From Sandaracinobacteroides sayramensis (GTDB lineage: Bacteria; Pseudomonadota; Alphaproteobacteria; Sphingomonadales; Sphingomonadaceae), in NCBI RefSeq assembly GCF_022014495.1, contig NZ_JAKLSQ010000010.1, forward strand, positions 62,001-126,000: 64,000 nt of DNA, in the 5' to 3' direction. Under the pieces are notes generated by a model. It did no database searches. It was not told the DNA's origin and saw only the letters and a program-made list of their open reading frames with translations. Below are positions 48,757-58,302 of the stretch, piece by piece. The translations under genes and the position numbers were made by a program. Numbering within the stretch: the stretch's first letter is position 1; each line of letters starts with the position of its first letter.

Positions 48757-51075
48757 TCAGGCCAGTGCCGCACGCGCCGCCTTCGCGGCCTCCACCATGT
48801 TGACGAGCGCGGGCCTCACATCCTCCCACTTGCGGGTCTTCAGGCCGCAATCAGGGTTCACCCAGAGCTGCCCGGCCGAAAGCCGCTCACCGGCCTTCAG
48901 CAGCAGTTCCCGCATCTCCGCGACCGTCGGGATGCGGGGGGAATGGATGTCGTAGACGCCCGGCCCGATCTCGTTGGGATATTTGTAGGTCACGAAGGCG
49001 TCGAGCAGCTCCATTTTCGAGCGCGAGGTCTCGATGGAGATGACATCGGCGTCCATCGCGCCGATCGCGGCGATGATGTCGTTGAACTCGGAATAGCACA
49101 TGTGGGTGTGGATCTGCGTTTCCGGGCGCACGCCGGAGGCGGCGATGCGGAAGCTCTCCACCGCCCAGTCCAGATAGGCCTGCCAGTCCGCGCGGTTCAG
49201 CGGCAGGCCTTCGCGCAGGGCCGCCTCGTCGATCTGGATGACGGCGGCGCCCGCCTGCTCCAGGTCCACCACCTCGTCGCGGATGGCGAGCGCGATCTGC
49301 CGGCAGGTGTCGGCGCGCGGCTGGTCGTCGCGCACGAAGGACCATTGCAGGATCGTCACCGGCCCCGTCAGCATGCCCTTCATCGGGCGTTGCGTCAGCG
49401 ACTGGGCGTAGCGCCACCATTCCACCGTCATCGGCTTCGGGCGGGACACGTCTCCGTAGATGATCGGCGGGCGGACGCAGCGCGAGCCATAGCTCTGCAC
49501 CCAGGCGGAGCGGGTGAAGGCGAATCCGGACAACTGCTCGCCAAAATATTGCACCATGTCGTTGCGCTCGAACTCGCCGTGCACCAGCACGTCGATGTCG
49601 ATCTCCTCCTGCCAGCGGACCGTGCGGGCCGTCTCCTCGCGCAGGAAGGCCGCATAGGCGGCGTCGTCCAGCGCGCCCTTGTCGTGGGCCGCGCGCGCCT
49701 TGCGCACCTCCGCCGTCTGCGGGAAGGAGCCGATCGTCGTCGTCGGCAGCGGCGGCAGCCGCAGCCGTGCCTGTTGCAGGGCGATACGCTCGGCAAAGGG
49801 CGTGACGCGGCGGCTCCAGTTGGCGTTCACCGCCGACAGGCGCGACCGGACCTTGGGATCATGGGTGAGCGGCGAAGTGCGCCGGGCCTCGATGGAGGCG
49901 GCGTTCGCGGCGAGTTCGGCCGCGACGCTGCCGCGCCCCTGATTCAGCGCCTTGCCGAGCAGCGCCAGTTCCTCCAGCTTCTGCTGGGCGAAGGCCAGCC
50001 AGTCCCTGACCTGCGGATCGAGCCGGGTTTCGGCGGCGAGGTCCACCGGCACGTGCAGCAGCGAGCAGGAGGGCGCGACCTCGATGTCGGCCCGCGCCTT
50101 CAGCACAGGCTCCAGCCTGTCCAGGGTGGCGGCGAGGTCGGCCTTCCAGATGTTGCGGCCGTCGATAACACCGAGCGACAGCCGCAGATCCTTCCGGGCG
50201 CCGTTCAGCACGGGCTCCAGCTGTTCCGGCGCGCGGACCAGGTCGAGGTGCAGCCCGGCGACCGGCAGGGCGAGCGCGGTTTCCAGATTGTCGCCCAGCG
50301 AGCCGAAATAGCTGGTCAGCATCAGCTTCGGGCCGTCGGCGGCCGCCAGCGCGGCATAGGCGGTGCGATAGGCGGTCCTGATCGCCTCGCGGCTGTCCAG
50401 CACCAGCGCCGGCTCGTCGATCTGCACCCAGTCCGCGCCGGCGGCCCTGAGCTTGGCGAGCAGCTCGGCATAGACGGGCAGGAGGCGGGGCAGCAGGGTC
50501 AGCGGCTCGAAGCCCGGCACATGGCTCTTGGCGAGCAGCAGCCAGGTGACCGGGCCGAGGATCACCGGGCGGGTGTGATGCCCGAGGGCGGCGGCTTCCC
50601 GGAAATGGTCCAGCGGCTTCGTGCTGCTGAGCGCGAAGGCCTGATCCGGCGACACTTCCGGCACCATATAATGGTAGTTGGTGTCGAACCATTTGGTCAT
50701 TTCCTGCGCGGGCACGTCGCCGCCGCCATGGCCATGGGCGCAGCCTTCTTCCTGGACTTCGGTGCGGGTGCCGCGCGCCATCGCGAAATAGACCTCCAGC
50801 GAATCCGGCGCGCCAAGAGCGCGGTAGAGGTCCGGGATGGCGCCGAGCATCACGCTGGTGTCCAGCACCTGGTCGTAGAAGGAGAAGTCGTTGGAGGGGA
50901 TGACGTCGATTCCGGCCGCCTTCTGCCGGTCCCAGGCGGCGGCGCGCAGGCCCTTTGCGGTTTCCAGAAGCTGGGCGCGGTCGATCTTGCCGGCCCAATA
51001 GGCCTCGACGGCGGTCTTCAGTTCGCGGCGCGGGCCGATGCGGGGGAAACCGAGGTTGGCAATGGTTGCAGGCAC
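48757..51075 (-). CDS. metE: Cobalamin-independent methionine synthase
   Basis: 772-residue zinc enzyme that transfers methyl from 5-methyltetrahydrofolate (triglutamate) to homocysteine. Two (beta/alpha)8 barrels; N-terminal NLGFPRIGPRRELK, C-terminal zinc ligands in IHTHMCYSEF (His, Cys) and VNPDCGLKTR (Cys), plus VLVHGEFERNDMV. Normal length. Preceded by a B12 riboswitch, so it is made when cobalamin is scarce; this implies the organism can also use B12 (a MetH route). Confidence 0.97.
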   Translation of the reverse strand: MPATIANLGFPRIGPRRELKTAVEAYWAGKIDRAQLLETAKGLRAAAWDRQKAAGIDVIPSNDFSFYDQVLDTSVMLGAIPDLYRALGAPDSLEVYFAMARGTRTEVQEEGCAHGHGGGDVPAQEMTKWFDTNYHYMVPEVSPDQAFALSSTKPLDHFREAAALGHHTRPVILGPVTWLLLAKSHVPGFEPLTLLPRLLPVYAELLAKLRAAGADWVQIDEPALVLDSREAIRTAYRTAYAALAAADGPKLMLTSYFGSLGDNLETALALPVAGLHLDLVRAPEQLEPVLNGARKDLRLSLGVIDGRNIWKADLAATLDRLEPVLKARADIEVAPSCSLLHVPVDLAAETRLDPQVRDWLAFAQQKLEELALLGKALNQGRGSVAAELAANAASIEARRTSPLTHDPKVRSRLSAVNANWSRRVTPFAERIALQQARLRLPPLPTTTIGSFPQTAEVRKARAAHDKGALDDAAYAAFLREETARTVRWQEEIDIDVLVHGEFERNDMVQYFGEQLSGFAFTRSAWVQSYGSRCVRPPIIYGDVSRPKPMTVEWWRYAQSLTQRPMKGMLTGPVTILQWSFVRDDQPRADTCRQIALAIRDEVVDLEQAGAAVIQIDEAALREGLPLNRADWQAYLDWAVESFRIAASGVRPETQIHTHMCYSEFNDIIAAIGAMDADVISIETSRSKMELLDAFVTYKYPNEIGPGVYDIHSPRIPTVAEMRELLLKAGERLSAGQLWVNPDCGLKTRKWEDVRPALVNMVEAAKAARAALA

Positions 51076-51088
51076 GGCAAATCTCCTT

Positions 51089-51111
51089 CGGCCGGGCGAT
51101 GCCGCCGGCCG
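51089..51111 (-). promoter_or_regulatory. Hairpin beside the metE ribosome binding site
   Basis: Stem CGGCCGG / CCGGCCG with nine-base loop, immediately before the minus-strand AAGGAGAT (51088-51081). It could gate ribosome access as the expression platform of the riboswitch upstream, or act in attenuation. Confidence 0.5.
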
Positions 51112-51373
51112 TCTTGGGGTGTCTCAGGCGATGGAAATGCGGTTAGCGCGCGGCCCCGGCCACGAGGCGGGGCGTGGCGGCAAGGCGCCGGGTCGATCGA
51201 GCCGGTGGGCCGATGGCATGTGGCAGGGGGGTTGCGAACATCGACCAATCACCTTGTTGTGGCGAAGGTCTACGGGCAGGCGCACGAGCACAGTCAGATC
51301 CGGAGGGGCAGCATCCGGGCCCTGCTTTCGCGCGTCCGCCGGAGGAACCCCCGTCCGAGGAACGTTATCGCGT

Positions 51374-51560
51374 CGAAGGCAGGTCTCCTGGCTCGCGGGT
51401 CGACACGTCGGCTCCGGCCTTCCCGGCGCCTTGCGGGCGCCAGTGGCACGAGATGGAACCGCCGCTCACCGCTTACAGTTGCGGGGGCAGCGCCGGATTC
51501 CGCCCGAAGGCGCCACCGGCTTCCCGTCTTAGCCCCGTCGCGCAGAACCCTTTAGGGCCC
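51374..51560 (-). promoter_or_regulatory. Cobalamin riboswitch upstream of metE
   Basis: On the minus strand the order is diagnostic: GACGGGAAGCCGGTG, then GCTGCCCCCGCAACTGTAA, GTGCCACTGG, GGGAAGGCC, and finally the B12 box GAGCCAGGAGACCTGCC (complement of 51378-51394). It binds adenosyl- or methylcobalamin and lowers expression of the B12-independent synthase. About 300 nt of leader separate it from the metE start. Confidence 0.93.
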
Positions 51561-51586
51561 TGGAACGGGGAACCTCGACACTCTGC

Positions 51587-51615
51587 TGTAGAAGGCCGGA
51601 CGGCGATTCTGTCAA
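51587..51615 (-). promoter_or_regulatory. metE promoter
   Basis: Minus strand -35 TTGACA (51615-51610), 17-bp spacer, -10 TCTACA (51592-51587). Transcription would begin near 51580, just before the riboswitch. Confidence 0.75.
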
Positions 51616-51621
51616 GTGCCA

Positions 51622-51639
51622 TATAAAGAAATCTTTATA
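51622..51639. promoter_or_regulatory. Palindromic operator upstream of the metE promoter
   Basis: TATAAAGA-AA-TCTTTATA, a perfect 8-bp-arm palindrome seven bases beyond the -35. The form resembles operators of ArsR-type regulators of the S-adenosylhomocysteine cycle (SahR), but the regulator is not in the window and the match is from memory of the motif type. Confidence 0.5.
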
Positions 51640-51750
51640 GATTTATATGTGTGCCCGGGTTGGCGGACAGGGAAATGGCCGCTCGCGCACCTCGTTGCTG
51701 CGGGCTTGAGCTGGGTGGTCGGCTTTTCCGGAAGCGCTGCGGTGGAGGCG

Positions 51751-51817: not shown

Positions 51818-52477
51818 TCAGGCGTCCGGCTCGTCGCCATAGTATAGCTGGCCGATGACGATTTCCGGGCGTCCCTGGCTCGTCCGATGGGCGTTGGTGT
51901 CGCGCAGCGAATAGACGCAGCCGCAATATTCCTGCTGATAGAAATGCTCGCGCTTCGATATCTCGATCATCCGCGCCGCGCCGCCGCCCTTGCGCCAGTT
52001 GAACGTCCAGTAGACGAGGTCGGGATAATGGCTCGCCGCGCGCTCGCCGCAATCGTTGATCTGCGCCATGTTCTTCCAGCGCGAGATGCCGAGCGAGGAG
52101 GTGATGACGGGGAAGCCGTTCTCATGCGCATAGAGCGCCGTGCGCTCGAACCGCATGTCGAAGCACATGGTGCAGCGCGCGCCGCGCTCCGGCTCCCACT
52201 CCATGCCTTTCGCGCGCCGGAACCAGTTCTGCGTGTCATAGTCCGCGTCGACGAAGGGGATGCCGTGCGCCTGCGCGAAGCGGATATTCTCGTCCTTGCG
52301 GAGGAGATATTCCTCTTTGGGGTGGATGTTCGGGTTGTAGAAGAAGATCGTATAGTCGATGCCGCTGGCCGTCATCGCCTCCATGACCTCGCCCGAGCAG
52401 GGCGCGCAGCAGCTGTGCAGGAGCACCCTGGAATGCCCGTCTGGCGGGGAAAGCTTGGCGCGGTCGGCGATGTCCAT
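51818..52477 (-). CDS. queH: Epoxyqueuosine reductase QueH
   Basis: 219 residues; last step of queuosine tRNA modification, a non-homologous replacement for QueG. Cysteine motifs for the iron-sulfur/metal site: [14 protein letters not shown] near the start, [16 protein letters not shown] in the middle and [12 protein letters not shown] near the end. Also [13 protein letters not shown]. Divergent from acnD across about 210 bp. Confidence 0.92.
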
Positions 52478-52686: not shown

Positions 52687-55311
52687 ATGAACGATGCCTT
52701 TCGCCAACCGCTTCCCGGAACCGACCTCGACTATTTCGATGCACGCGCGGCGGTCAACGCCATCCGTCCGGGCGCCTATGAGCGGCTGCCCTATGTGTCG
52801 CGGGTGCTGGCCGAGCAGCTCGTCCGGCGCTGCGACGTGGCGCTGCTTCCGGATGCGCTGCGGCAGATCGTCGAGCGCAAGCGCGACCTGGATTTCCCCT
52901 GGTATCCCGCGCGCGTCGTCTGCCACGACATATTGGGGCAGACGGCGCTCGTCGACCTCGCCGGCCTGCGCGACGCGATCGCCGACCAGGGCGGAGACCC
53001 GGCGAAGGTCAACCCCGTGGTTCCGACCCAGCTCATCGTCGACCATAGCCTCGCCGTCGAATATGGCGGCTTCGATCCGGAGGCCTTCGAGAAGAACCGG
53101 GCGGTGGAGGACCGCCGCAACGAGGACCGCTTCCATTTCATCGAATGGACGAAGCGCGCCTTCGAGAATGTGGACGTGATCCCCGCCGGCAACGGCATCA
53201 TGCACCAGATCAACCTGGAGAAGATGTCCCCGGTGATCCAGGTGCGCGACGGCGTCGCCTTCCCGGACACCTGCGTCGGGACGGACAGCCACACGCCGCA
53301 TGTCGACGCGCTGGGGGTGATCGCCATCGGCGTCGGCGGGCTGGAGGCCGAGACGGTGATGCTCGGCCGCGCCTCGATGATGCGCCTGCCCGATATCGTG
53401 GGGGTGAGGCTGACCGGGCAGCGCCAGCCCGGAATCACCGCGACCGACATCGTGCTGGCGCTGACCGAGTTCCTCCGCAAGGAGCGGGTGGTGGGCGCCT
53501 GGGTCGAGTTCTTCGGCGAGGGCGCGGACAGCCTCTCCATCGGCGACCGGGCGACCATCTCCAACATGTGCCCCGAATATGGCGCGACCGCCGCGATGTT
53601 CTACATCGACGGGCAGACGATCGACTATCTGAAGCTGACGGGCCGCGAGCCCGAGCAGGTCGCCCTCGTCGAGCATTATGCGAAAGTGACGGGCCTCTGG
53701 GCGGATGCGCTGAAGACCGCCGAATATGAGCGCGTGCTGGAATTCGATCTCAGCGCCGTGGTGCGCAACATGGCCGGCCCTTCCAACCCGCACCGCCGGC
53801 TGCCGACCTCGGCGCTGGAGGAGCGCGGCATCGCCGTCGATCTCGACAAGGCGGTCGCCGAGGAGGAGCAGGGGCTGCTGCCGGACGGCGCGGTGATCAT
53901 CGCCGCCATCACCAGCTGCACCAACACCTCCAACCCGCGCAACGTGGTGGCGGCCGGCCTGCTGGCGCAGAAGGCGAATGCCTTCGGCTTCACCCGCAAG
54001 CCCTGGGTGAAGACCAGCTTCGCGCCCGGCTCGAAGGTCGCGCGCCTCTATCTCCTGGAATCCGGCCTGCTGCCGGAGCTGGAGAAGCTCGGCTTCGGGA
54101 TCGTCGCCTATGCCTGCACCACCTGCAACGGCATGTCGGGCGCGCTGGACCCGGAGATCCAGCGGGAGATCATCGACCGCGACCTCTATGCGACCGCCGT
54201 TCTTTCCGGGAACCGCAATTTCGACGGCCGGATCCACCCCTATGCGAAGCAGGCCTTCCTCGCGTCGCCGCCGCTCGTCGTCGCCTATGCGCTGGCCGGC
54301 ACGGTGCGCTTCGATATCGAGAAGGATGTGCTCGGAGTCGTCGACGGCCGGGATATCCGGCTGAAGGACCTCTGGCCGAGCGACGAGGAGATCGACGCCA
54401 TCGTCTCCGCAAGCGTGAAGCCGGAGCAGTTCCGCGAAGTCTATGATCCGATGTTCGCGCGCAGCCGCGAGTCGGGCCGGAAGACCGATCCGCTCTACGA
54501 CTGGCGGCCGCAATCCACCTACATCCGCCGCCCGCCCTATTGGGACACGGAAGGGGTGGGCGCGCTGGCCGCCAATCCCCGCACGCTGAAGGGGATGCGC
54601 CCGCTCGCCATCCTGCCGGACAATATCACCACCGATCACCTCTCGCCCTCGAACGCCATCCTCGCCAGTTCGGCGGCGGGCGAGTATCTGACGAAGATGG
54701 GCGTGCCCGAGGAGGATTATAACAGCTATGCCACCCATCGCGGCGACCATCTGACGGCCATGCGCGCCACCTTCGCCAACCCGCAGCTGGTGAACGAGAT
54801 GGCCGTGGTGGACGGCGAAGTGAAGAAGGGCTCGCTCGCCCGGGTCGAGCCGGAGGGCGAGGTGATGCGCATGTGGGAGGCGATCGAAACCTATCTCGGC
54901 CGCCGCCAGCCGCTCATCATCGTCGCCGGCGCCGACTATGGCCAGGGCTCCTCGCGGGACTGGGCGGCGAAGGGCGTCCGCCTTGCCGGCGTGGAGGCGA
55001 TCGTCGCCGAAGGGTTCGAGCGGATCCACCGCACCAACCTCATCGGCATGGGCGTGCTGCCGCTGGAATTCCGCCGCGGCACCACCCGCCTGACCCTGAA
55101 GCTGGACGGGACGGAAACCTATGATGTGGAAGGGGAACGCAAGCCGCGCGCCGAGCTGAAGCTCATCGTCCGTCGCCGCGACGGCGAAACCACGGAAGTG
55201 CCGGTGATCTGCCGGCTCGACACCGCCGAGGAAGTGTCGATCTACGAGGCCGGCGGCGTGCTGCAGCGCTTCGCGCAGGACTTCCTCGCCTCCGAAGCCG
55301 AGGCCGCCTGA
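52687..55311 (+). CDS. acnD: Fe-S-dependent 2-methylcitrate dehydratase AcnD
   Basis: 874-residue aconitase-family enzyme that dehydrates 2-methylcitrate in propionyl-CoA catabolism; with PrpF it replaces PrpD. Iron-sulfur cysteines in ITSCTNTSNPRN and ACTTCNGMSG; swivel domain with AGADYGQGSSRDWAAKG. Distinguished from ordinary aconitase by its linkage to prpF, prpC and prpB. ATG 52687 follows GATAGAG weakly. The stop overlaps the prpF ATG by one base. Confidence 0.93.
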   Translation: MNDAFRQPLPGTDLDYFDARAAVNAIRPGAYERLPYVSRVLAEQLVRRCDVALLPDALRQIVERKRDLDFPWYPARVVCHDILGQTALVDLAGLRDAIADQGGDPAKVNPVVPTQLIVDHSLAVEYGGFDPEAFEKNRAVEDRRNEDRFHFIEWTKRAFENVDVIPAGNGIMHQINLEKMSPVIQVRDGVAFPDTCVGTDSHTPHVDALGVIAIGVGGLEAETVMLGRASMMRLPDIVGVRLTGQRQPGITATDIVLALTEFLRKERVVGAWVEFFGEGADSLSIGDRATISNMCPEYGATAAMFYIDGQTIDYLKLTGREPEQVALVEHYAKVTGLWADALKTAEYERVLEFDLSAVVRNMAGPSNPHRRLPTSALEERGIAVDLDKAVAEEEQGLLPDGAVIIAAITSCTNTSNPRNVVAAGLLAQKANAFGFTRKPWVKTSFAPGSKVARLYLLESGLLPELEKLGFGIVAYACTTCNGMSGALDPEIQREIIDRDLYATAVLSGNRNFDGRIHPYAKQAFLASPPLVVAYALAGTVRFDIEKDVLGVVDGRDIRLKDLWPSDEEIDAIVSASVKPEQFREVYDPMFARSRESGRKTDPLYDWRPQSTYIRRPPYWDTEGVGALAANPRTLKGMRPLAILPDNITTDHLSPSNAILASSAAGEYLTKMGVPEEDYNSYATHRGDHLTAMRATFANPQLVNEMAVVDGEVKKGSLARVEPEGEVMRMWEAIETYLGRRQPLIIVAGADYGQGSSRDWAAKGVRLAGVEAIVAEGFERIHRTNLIGMGVLPLEFRRGTTRLTLKLDGTETYDVEGERKPRAELKLIVRRRDGETTEVPVICRLDTAEEVSIYEAGGVLQRFAQDFLASEAEAA

Positions 55312-56507
55312 TGCCGGCGGCTCCACAGGTCCGCATCCCCGCCACCTTCCTGCGCGGCGGCACCAGCAAGGGCGTGTTCTTCCGGCTGGAAGACCTGCCG
55401 GAGCGCTGCCGCCTGCCCGGCAAGGCGCGCGACCGGCTGTTCCAGCGCGTGATCGGCAGCCCCGATCCCTATGCCGCGCATATCGACGGCATGGGCGGCG
55501 CGACCTCCAGCACCAGCAAATGCGTCATCGTCTCGCCGGCCACGCAGGCGGGGCATGATGTCGATTATCTCTATGGCCAGATCGCCATCGACAAGGACTT
55601 CGTCGACTGGTCGAGCAATTGCGGCAATCTCTCGACCGCCGCCGGCGCGTTCGCCGTCCATGCCGGCTATGTCGATCCGGCGCGGGCGGAGAATGGCGTC
55701 TGCACCGTGCGCATCTGGCAGGCGAATATCGGCAAGACGATCATCGCCCACGTGCCCGTGATGGACGGCGGGGTGCAGGAAACCGGCGATTTCGAGCTGG
55801 ACGGCGTGACCTTTCCGGCCGCCGAGATCGTGCTGGAATTCCTCGATCCCGCCGAAAGCGGCGACGACGGCGGGTCGATGTTCCCGACCGGCCATGTCGT
55901 CGACGAACTGGAGGTGCCGGACGATCTCGTGCCGGGCGGCAAGCTAAAGGCGACGCTCATCAACGCCGGCGTTCCCGCCATCTTCCTGAACGCGGCCGAC
56001 ATTGGCTGCACCGGCACGGAATTGCGCGAGGCGATCAACGGCGACGCGAAGGCGCTCGGGCGTTTCGAGGCGCTGCGCACGATCGGCGCGCTGAAGATGG
56101 GGATCATCAAGGCGCCCGAGGAGGCGGCGAAGTCCTTGCGCGCGCCGGCGATCGCCTTCGTCGCGCCGCCCGCCAGCTACAAGGCTTCCAGCGGCCGGAC
56201 GATCGCGGCCGAGGAGATCGACCTGCTGGCGAGAGCGCTCTCGATGGGCAAGCTGCACCATGCGATGATGGGCACCGCCTCGGTCGCGATCGCCACGGCG
56301 GCGGCGGTGCCCGGAACGCTGGTGAACCTCGCCGCCGGCGGGGGCGAGCGCCAGGCGGTCCGCTTCGGCCATCCTTCGGGAACCTTGCGCGTCGGCGCCG
56401 AGGCCCGGCAGGTCGACGGTCGATGGGTCGTGACGAAGGCGGTCATGAGCCGCAGCGCGCGCATCCTCATGGAGGGATGGATTCGCGTTCCGGGCGACTC
56501 CTTCTGA
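55311..56507 (+). CDS. prpF: 2-methylaconitate cis-trans isomerase PrpF
   Basis: 398 residues, two-domain diaminopimelate-epimerase-like fold. Family patterns: IPATFLRGGTSKGVFF at the start, GMGGATSSTSKCVIVS, DWSSNCGNLSTAAGAFAVHA and GTASVAIATAAAVPGTLVNL. Converts the AcnD product to the isomer that aconitase hydrates. Translationally coupled to acnD. Confidence 0.95.
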   Translation: MPAAPQVRIPATFLRGGTSKGVFFRLEDLPERCRLPGKARDRLFQRVIGSPDPYAAHIDGMGGATSSTSKCVIVSPATQAGHDVDYLYGQIAIDKDFVDWSSNCGNLSTAAGAFAVHAGYVDPARAENGVCTVRIWQANIGKTIIAHVPVMDGGVQETGDFELDGVTFPAAEIVLEFLDPAESGDDGGSMFPTGHVVDELEVPDDLVPGGKLKATLINAGVPAIFLNAADIGCTGTELREAINGDAKALGRFEALRTIGALKMGIIKAPEEAAKSLRAPAIAFVAPPASYKASSGRTIAAEEIDLLARALSMGKLHHAMMGTASVAIATAAAVPGTLVNLAAGGGERQAVRFGHPSGTLRVGAEARQVDGRWVVTKAVMSRSARILMEGWIRVPGDSF

Positions 56508-56656
56508 GGGCATTTCTGGCCCGCCACCGCAGCCTCCCGAACCGCTGAGGGACTTGTTTTGCACCGGGCCACAGTCGTCCGGCGCCCCCTGCCGGATACC
56601 TTCGCGGCCTGATCGGCGGGCGACTGGGATCGCCGCGCCCGCACCTGTTTCCGCCA

Positions 56657-56712
56657 TCTTCGCAAGTTTCGCCGATTTGCAGATTTGGCTTCGCAAATCT
56701 TCGCCTTTTCAG
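56657..56712 (+). promoter_or_regulatory. Operator upstream of the prpC transcription unit
   Basis: CTTCGCAAGTTTCGCC followed by the 42-bp block at 56671-56712 shared with the acnD region (3 mismatches). A GATAAT at 56738-56743 could be a -10 element, with a start near 56750. This splits the locus into two co-regulated units. Confidence 0.75.
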
Positions 56713-56749
56713 CCGTTTTCGCAGTCCCGGGCGTGCGGATAATGCGCAA

Positions 56750-57055
56750 ATGCTTTCGAACCGACCCGAAAAAGGCCTCGACCTTCTGGATGCGATGGTG
56801 AACGCCGCGGCCGACCGGGCGTCCTCGCATCTGGCGGGCACCATCCGCTTCGCCAGGTGCGACGGTTTGCAAGTCAACGAAGGCTTTTCCGCCCCGGATG
56901 TCGAAATCGAGACCTGGTCCGTCTCCGCCGACCATCAGGCGATCGTCGTTTCCGTTTTCGCCACCGGCGCGCGGGAGGATGGCGGCCGGACGACGGCGGC
57001 CTGCGGCCGTTTCACCTTCACCACGCTCACCGGCAAGCGGGGCTATCGCGCATGA
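56750..57055 (+). CDS. Conserved-looking small protein in the methylcitrate locus
   Basis: 101 residues, soluble. The end (APDVEIETWSVSADHQAIVV ... CGRFTFTTLTGKRG) resembles the beta-rich half of a hotdog thioesterase, but it is short for that fold and no assignment is made. There is no ribosome binding site, and the ATG is only six bases after a possible -10, so leaderless translation is possible. Lies between prpF and prpC, 89 bp before prpC. Confidence 0.55.
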   Translation: MLSNRPEKGLDLLDAMVNAAADRASSHLAGTIRFARCDGLQVNEGFSAPDVEIETWSVSADHQAIVVSVFATGAREDGGRTTAACGRFTFTTLTGKRGYRA

Positions 57056-57144
57056 CCTGGCTGCGCGGCCTGCGCCTTTCCGATCCTTTCACCGGCCAGA
57101 GCCCGGCGGCTTCGGCCGGCACTTTCTGACATAAGGGGGAATTC

Positions 57145-58302
57145 ATGTCCGAAACAGCTTTCAAGCCCAAGAAGTCGGTGGCGCTGTCCGGAGTTGCCGC
57201 CGGCAACACCGCCCTTTGCACCGTCGGCAAGACGGGCAACGATCTGCACTATCGCGGCTATGACATCCTCGAATTCGCCGAGACGGCGGAATTCGAGGAA
57301 ATCGCCCATCTGCTGGTGCATGGAGACCTGCCGACGCACACGCAACTGGCCGCCTACAAGGCGAAGCTGAAAACGCTGCGCGGCCTGCCGCAGGCCGTGA
57401 AGAACGCTCTGGAGTCCATTCCGGCAGCGGCGCACCCGATGGACGTGATGCGCTCGGGCGTTTCCGCGCTGGGCTGCGTCCTTCCGGAAACGCATGACCA
57501 CAACCTGCCCGACGCGCGCGACATCGCCGACCGGCTGATGGCCTCGCTCGGCTCGATGCTGCTCTACTGGTATCATTTCGCGCATAACGGCCGCCGCATC
57601 GAGGTGGAGACCGACGACGACAGCATCGGCGGCCACTTCCTGCACCTGCTGCACGGCAAGGCGCCGGCGGGGAGCTGGGAGCGGGCGATGCACACCTCGC
57701 TGATCCTCTATGCCGAGCATGAGTTCAACGCCTCCACCTTCACCGCCCGGGTGATCGCCGGCACCGGCTCCGACATGTACAGCTGCGTCGCCGGCGCCAT
57801 CGGCGCCCTGCGCGGGCCGAAGCATGGCGGCGCGAACGAGGTCGCCTATGAAATCCAGAAGCGCTACGCCGCGCCGGACGAGGCCGAGGCCGACATCCGC
57901 CGCCGCGTGGAGGCGAAGGAAGTGGTGATCGGCTTCGGCCACCCCGTCTACACCATCGCCGATCCGCGCAACGTGGTGATCAAGCGGGTGGCGAAGTCGC
58001 TGGCCGAGGAAGCCGGCGCCCGCCGCCAGTTCGCGGTCGCCGAGCGGATCGAAAGCGTGATGTGGGACGCGAAGAAGATGTTCCCCAACCTCGACTGGTT
58101 CTCGGCCGTTTCCTATAATCTGATGGGCGTGCCGACCGCGATGTTCACGCCGCTGTTCGTGATCGCCCGCACCTCCGGCTGGGCGGCGCATGTGATCGAG
58201 CAGCGGCAGGACAACAAGATCATCCGCCCCTCCGCCAACTACACCGGGCCGGAGAATCTGAAATTCGTGCCGCTGGCCGAGCGGCGGGAAGCACATGCCT
58301 GA
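57145..58302 (+). CDS. prpC: 2-methylcitrate synthase
   Basis: 385-residue citrate-synthase-family enzyme condensing propionyl-CoA with oxaloacetate. Features: [17 protein letters not shown] near the N-terminus, typical of PrpC; catalytic histidine/aspartate regions [18 protein letters not shown] and [39 protein letters not shown] follows AAGGGGGA. Slight overlap or tight spacing with prpB. Confidence 0.95.

Follow-up and report, generated by a model that had tools for sequence, protein, structure and literature searches.

A predicted SahR-type operator, a cobalamin riboswitch and a conserved upstream ORF ahead of metE in Sandaracinobacteroides sayramensis

The SahR regulon, as outlined in the sections of PMC4239095 consulted, is governed by an ArsR-type regulator that recognises a 20-bp palindrome, with sahR, ahcY, metH, metF and metK as core targets and metE as a target in 29% of the relevant genomes. 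The consulted part of PMC8877191 presents SahR as a repressor. Its effector, according to the SahR literature, is S-adenosylhomocysteine (SAH). Riboswitches that act on an upstream ORF (uORF) have been shown in Mycobacterium tuberculosis. In the sections of PMC11260477 used here, a B12 riboswitch with a class IIb aptamer masks the ribosome site of uPPE2 via an anti-site strand, and ppe2 depends on translation of this uORF, the stop codon of which overlaps the gene start (termination-reinitiation). The same sections describe a class I B12 riboswitch and a translated uORF, uMetE2, on metE itself; uMetE2 is situated within the aptamer and suppresses MetE. In the pe20 Mbox of M. tuberculosis, a magnesium sensor that differs from the present system in phylum and gene, the riboswitch directly controls the uORF rv1805A through a translational platform, with Rho, and the uORF has a further copy that is not associated with the riboswitch (PMC12810186, excerpts). 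SahR regulons, B12 riboswitches and riboswitch-gated uORFs are known separately, and the arrangement proposed here would be a variant that joins them. A search of the open-access literature, with most subscription papers outside its scope, found no description of a SahR-B12 riboswitch-uORF arrangement in Alphaproteobacteria.

The window analysed is a 64,000-nt stretch of the S. sayramensis genome, to which all coordinates refer. The metE gene, assigned to cobalamin-independent methionine synthase by Pfam and NCBIfam matches, occupies 48757..51075 on the minus strand and begins with a GTG at 51075, with a 285-nt leader between it and the riboswitch. Reading right to left, the minus strand carries the operator, a -35 element, a weak -10 element, the cobalamin riboswitch, the uORF, a hairpin (hairpin C), the metE ribosome site and metE. 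An initial annotation made from the letters alone had named an operator palindrome, a perfect -35, a B12 riboswitch and a GC hairpin, and all four were found on this strand. The uORF, which lies between the riboswitch and metE and has its own ribosome site, was absent from that annotation. An intrinsic terminator was rejected as the output of the riboswitch, as no terminator-like site was found in 51050-51700, and for this region the same result separates the locus from trp-type leader-peptide attenuators, in which an intrinsic terminator lies 3' of the leader ORF.

A three-step cascade, with SahR setting the level of transcription, B12 shutting the uORF and uORF translation opening metE, is given a probability of about 0.55. 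Comparison of relatives supports the identity of the operator, the fixed operator-promoter spacing, the riboswitch, the conserved uORF and the predicted masking of its start; the direction of the SahR effect, the ligand effects and the dependence of metE on the uORF we infer as follows. A SahR-type regulator would bind the operator beside the -35 element and lower initiation at low SAH. With B12 bound, the G-rich L13 would be held by L5, and the strand at 51261-51269 would mask the uORF ribosome site; without B12, L13 would take this anti-ribosome-site strand and the uORF would be translated. Translation of the uORF would be needed for metE output, either keeping Rho off a C-rich, G-poor stretch or remodelling the leader, with the metE ribosome site already open beside hairpin C.

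The aptamer (51361..51591, minus strand) matches RF00174 over the full model, positions 1-189, and scores 109.4 bits, well over the 31.5 bits of the gathering score. It is one of three RF00174 riboswitches in the genome; the other two precede ORFs that resemble TonB receptors (named by eye), and no operator was found near either (best matches with 12 and 10 mismatches). The L5 loop segment CTGCCCCCGC (51481..51490, minus strand) is the predicted kissing-loop partner of the P13/L13 element CGGACGGGGGTTCCTCCG (51340..51357, minus strand), which is predicted to pair either with L5 or with the putative anti-ribosome-site strand ACCTTCGCC (51261..51269, minus strand). We take this predicted L5/L13 arrangement to be the class I kissing-loop layout. 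Across leaders, a conserved element 3' of the aptamer, CGGACGGGGG or CGGGCGGGGT, matches the CCCCC of L5 (-10.3 to -14.8 kcal/mol), the value for the complementary segments in the window being -14.8 kcal/mol.

The uORF of the window, MFATPLPHAIGPPARSTRRLAATPRLVAGAAR, consists of 32 codons plus a stop (51143..51241, minus strand) and is preceded by the ribosome site AAGGTG (51250..51255, minus strand). In one metE clade, 16/16 of the long leaders that carry the riboswitch (L093-L097, L100, L102-L109, L186 and L187) have a uORF; its ATG lies 97-157 nt 3' of the B12 box behind an SD-like sequence, its length is 14-47 codons and its stop falls 67-105 nt before metE. The ATG columns are invariant within a poorly conserved stretch, and 10 of 13 substitutions fall at third codon positions (p 0.0016; four close pairs, two of which share L095). 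Conservation of the peptides is poor toward the N-terminus. The C-terminus carries an RM..R..S-like end in the same frame in eight riboswitch-bearing leaders that differ in their insertions, as well as in L099, and three more uORFs end in GRMR; this end is missing in 5/17 uORFs including that of the window, which shares AIGPP with several others. In the MetE tree, 17 rows of a clade of 19 (support 100/99) have the uORF. The two that do not, L098 and L101, are riboswitch-bearing sisters nested inside the clade, and hence one gain and one loss suffice.

Leaders of a second, shorter type served for comparison. In L110-L122 (except L118), L026, L029 and L030, the operator, promoter, aptamer and L13 are homologous to those of the long leaders and the anti-ribosome-site strand is similar, but the platform ends directly at metE and there is no uORF. 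The best alternative partner of L13 ends 17-21 nt before the metE ATG in 10 of the 15 scored leaders without a uORF (L120-L122 were left unscored in this position-free test). In the uORF leaders, the position-free test of the L13 target gave a weak preference for the uORF (10/16, p 0.04). A position-specific test that followed it, with the distance taken from the short leaders, found better L13 pairing before the uORF than before metE in 15/16 (means -13.2 and -9.0 kcal/mol, p 4.6e-5). The partner in the window is moderate, at -10.6 kcal/mol, a value equalled at 26% of leader positions. In local folds, the SD zone is more fully paired at the uORF than at metE in 16/16 leaders (mean 0.62 vs 0.37), and in the window the SD and ATG of the uORF fold into a hairpin of -12.7 kcal/mol (z -2.7). 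The predicted alternative L13 partner and masking hairpin sit at the uORF ribosome site in the position held by metE's own in the short-leader relatives, and the strand predicted to mask the uORF ribosome site can instead pair with an element of the platform. The riboswitch appears, on these folding models, to control the start of the uORF ahead of metE.

The distance of 67-105 nt from the uORF stop to metE means that coupling between the two cannot be direct, and termination-reinitiation is unlikely. The leader, which has an RF00174 aptamer, was for the same reason not filed with the ppe2 type, where (in the sections of PMC11260477 consulted) the aptamer is class IIb and stop and start overlap. 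It differs also from uMetE2, as described there, in that the uORF follows the platform and probably promotes MetE. The stretch before metE contains more C than G in 16/16 leaders, which makes it a possible Rho site, and Rho polarity fits both this composition and the lack of an intrinsic terminator.

A possible, if doubtful, alternative is that control has two layers only, SahR at the promoter and the riboswitch on metE via Rho or the metE ribosome site, with the uORF a by-product of an accidental start signal. L098, L101 and the short-leader relatives do without a uORF, and both the variable N-termini and the potential Rho site are compatible with this explanation. An accidental start is hard to square with an invariant ATG and SD, a frame kept through insertions and an excess of third-position changes, or with masking and an L13 partner that are predicted at the uORF and not at metE, and one relative has kept the uORF after loss of the riboswitch. 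If the cascade is correct, a riboswitch with metE as its nominal target regulates a hidden small ORF first, and a target called from the next annotated gene would therefore be misleading in such cases. Riboswitch-gated uORFs would then exist in Alphaproteobacteria as well as in M. tuberculosis. Natural variants, with a uORF but no riboswitch (G017) or with a riboswitch but no uORF (L098, L101), offer a direct way to test what the uORF does.

Hairpin C (CGGCCGG...CCGGCCG; 51089..51111, minus strand) lies directly before the metE ribosome site AAGGAG (51083..51088, minus strand), which it abuts, and folds at -17.1 kcal/mol (z -2.5). It recurs with pair changes in 17/17 long leaders examined, the fifth pair being C-G, A-U, G-C or G-U in different genomes; only such changes of pair type were used, because an arm-swap control was biased, the arm pairs having been picked for best pairing. 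As the SD stays outside the stem, hairpin C was rejected as a sequesterer of the metE ribosome site. No link between this hairpin and the riboswitch was seen. The proposal of the initial annotation is thus supported in part: joint control by a methionine-cycle regulator and cobalamin is well supported by comparison, the regulator being of SahR type. Hairpin C is real and conserved but probably not the output of the riboswitch.

A further structure, hairpin B, is present in other members of the clade. Its pattern occurs at eight places in 298 family genomes, each in a metE leader, with no similar element at other genes in these genomes and no match in the window. In G017 (L099), metE has neither operator nor riboswitch but keeps hairpins B and C and the uORF, MTIRSALPLPPRMRRRVASG, whose ATG overlaps the stop codon of a gene named by eye as prpB-like. 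No SahR homologue was found in G017 at E 1e-50. This single case suggests that translation of the uORF is worth keeping even without the riboswitch, and it may be compared with the extra uORF copy noted in the consulted part of the pe20 Mbox report (PMC12810186).

These features raise the alternative that the uORF and hairpins B and C form an independent translation sensor, in which the behaviour of the ribosome at an end containing Arg and Met, with the stop in the hairpin B loop, gates metE besides B12. The recurrent RM..R..S and GRMR ends, the confinement of the hairpin B pattern to metE leaders and the persistence of the module in G017 point this way. Such a sensor is nonetheless unlikely, since the end is missing from the uORF of the window and four others, the window offers no terminator on which it could act, the metE ribosome site lies outside hairpin B, and the riboswitch-free case is a single one. 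A wider form of the idea is rather doubtful: the metE leader of this clade would contain an autonomous translated sensor, with a uORF often ending RM..R..S, its stop in the hairpin B loop and hairpin C clamping the metE site open, that is coupled to the riboswitch in most lineages and, in one, became coupled to translation of prpB instead. If so, metE would have three gates: SAH acting on the promoter, B12 on the start of the uORF, and the ribosome's behaviour at the end of the uORF.

The first step of the cascade concerns the operator. The predicted SahR-type site CTATAAAGATTTCTTTATAT (51621..51640, minus strand) has one mismatch to the motif ATATAAAGANNTCTTTATAT and recurs before sahR and ahcY in relatives. 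It contains the 18-mer TATAAAGAAATCTTTATA (51622-51639), for which 0 matches were expected from 100 dinucleotide shuffles of the window and which is the sole site within two mismatches of WATAAAGANNTCTTTATW in the 3.82 Mb genome. The palindrome had been called perfect; the inverted repeat is present and unique but near-perfect, and is best written 8+2+8 because its two central bases are asymmetric. The -35 element TTGACA (51610..51615, minus strand) is perfect, as stated in the initial annotation, and lies 5 nt from the operator, but the -10 element TCTACA (51587..51592, minus strand), after a 17-nt spacer, agrees with the consensus at only 3/6 positions, and a consensus promoter scan of the metE upstream region reported no promoter.

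The metE gene is patchy in the family, being present in 34/298 genomes and, when more genomes were sampled with a stricter cut-off, in 38/397. Upstream regions were examined for 34 metE loci, 30 from the family and four named ones (4 of 80). Over the whole analysis, family metE loci were read from 33 of the 39 matching genomes. RF00174 was found in 32 of them, the exceptions being L099 and L118, and in 32/32 riboswitch-bearing loci a palindrome-like 20-mer precedes TTGAC, with 0 mismatches in 12, 1 in 14, 2 in 3, 3 in 1 and 4 in 2 (L101 and L013 have identical upstream sequences). The spacing from operator to TTGAC is 5 nt in 30/32, 3 nt in one and 6 nt in one, and by reading it is also 5 nt in the later loci L186-L188. 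A fixed operator-promoter-riboswitch unit of this kind would give a clean design with two inputs, SAH and B12. The riboswitch behind the metE operator, the fixed spacing and the uORF are not described in the sections of PMC4239095 consulted. In G043, a second cobalamin riboswitch (L116, 815-1061, minus strand) points to a TonB-receptor-like ORF, in the opposite direction to metE, and since a single operator sits between the two riboswitches it may serve both.

The S. sayramensis genome encodes a protein with an ArsR-type HTH and a methyltransferase domain (HTH_5 plus Methyltransf_11 in L005), which matches SahR as described in the available part of PMC4239095. Elsewhere in the genome, the sahR stop overlaps the metF start and metH follows on the same strand (sahR-metF-metH); an ArsR-type gene is thus linked to methionine-cycle genes, and a 20-bp palindromic site is common to sahR and genes of the SAM cycle, as in a SahR regulon. 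With up to three mismatches, the motif is found in 260/298 family genomes, and at three sites in this genome against 0 for a reversed control. These are the metE site (1 mismatch) and sites before sahR and metK (3 each). The initial annotation had proposed a search before metH, ahcY and metK: the palindrome was recovered before metK and, via the sahR-metF-metH operon, for metH, but not before ahcY, where the best 20-mer in this genome has 8 mismatches. In relatives, the same 20-mer as the metE operator lies directly before sahR and before ahcY; 19 of 30 motif loci fetched, a non-random sample in which L154 and L155 are duplicates, adjoin ahcY, 10 sahR and one neither. A SahR homologue at E 1e-50 is likewise present in 260/298 family genomes. 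By hand count (n=298), 247 have both, 13 the motif only, 13 the protein only and 25 neither; Fisher's test gives p about 1e-17, which overstates the association because the species are related. The most probable identity of the metE palindrome is a SahR operator.

The arrangement at sahR is near-fixed but different (L156-L185). In 26/30 sahR loci the best motif copy follows a TTGAC by 7-9 nt, with no more than 4 mismatches in 23 of them, and the motif therefore lies between the -35 and -10 elements there, in contrast to its position upstream of the -35 at metE. In the genus of the window and a near relative (L156-L161), drift has turned the sahR site into ATATAAAGANNTNNTTAAGT, with an additional TCTTT. 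This drifted type also occurs in reverse before metK, while the site at metE has remained canonical. SahR might then activate metE from upstream of the -35 and repress its own gene from between the -35 and -10, in keeping with the near-invariant 5-nt spacing and the weak -10 of metE. Such activation is decidedly unlikely: the ahcY motif adjoins a TTGCC-like -35 at about 0 nt (by reading), and so the 5-nt distance is not general; SahR appears as a repressor in the consulted part of PMC8877191; and low SAH would raise metE, a poor physiological fit. The remaining explanation takes the palindrome as an A/T-rich promoter upstream element, in the place where the polymerase alpha subunit binds, or as a site for another regulator, and the genomes with motif or SahR only (13 of each) agree with it, but the inverted symmetry with conserved G and C, the same motif before sahR and ahcY, the co-occurrence with SahR and the joint absence of a SahR match and a metE operator in G017 make it very improbable.

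None of the five other sampled genomes of the genus has metE, which suggests repeated loss or gain by transfer. Among the plasmid records listed (40 of 96) there was no sphingomonad. Upstream of metE in the window and on the same strand is queH, encoding epoxyqueuosine reductase (51818-52477, minus strand), and an aconitase-PrpF-citrate synthase cluster resembling the 2-methylcitrate pathway (52687-58302, plus strand) adjoins metE. In G017, a prpB-like gene lies directly 5' of metE. Both metE and a 2-methylcitrate-like pathway are B12-independent alternatives to B12 enzymes.
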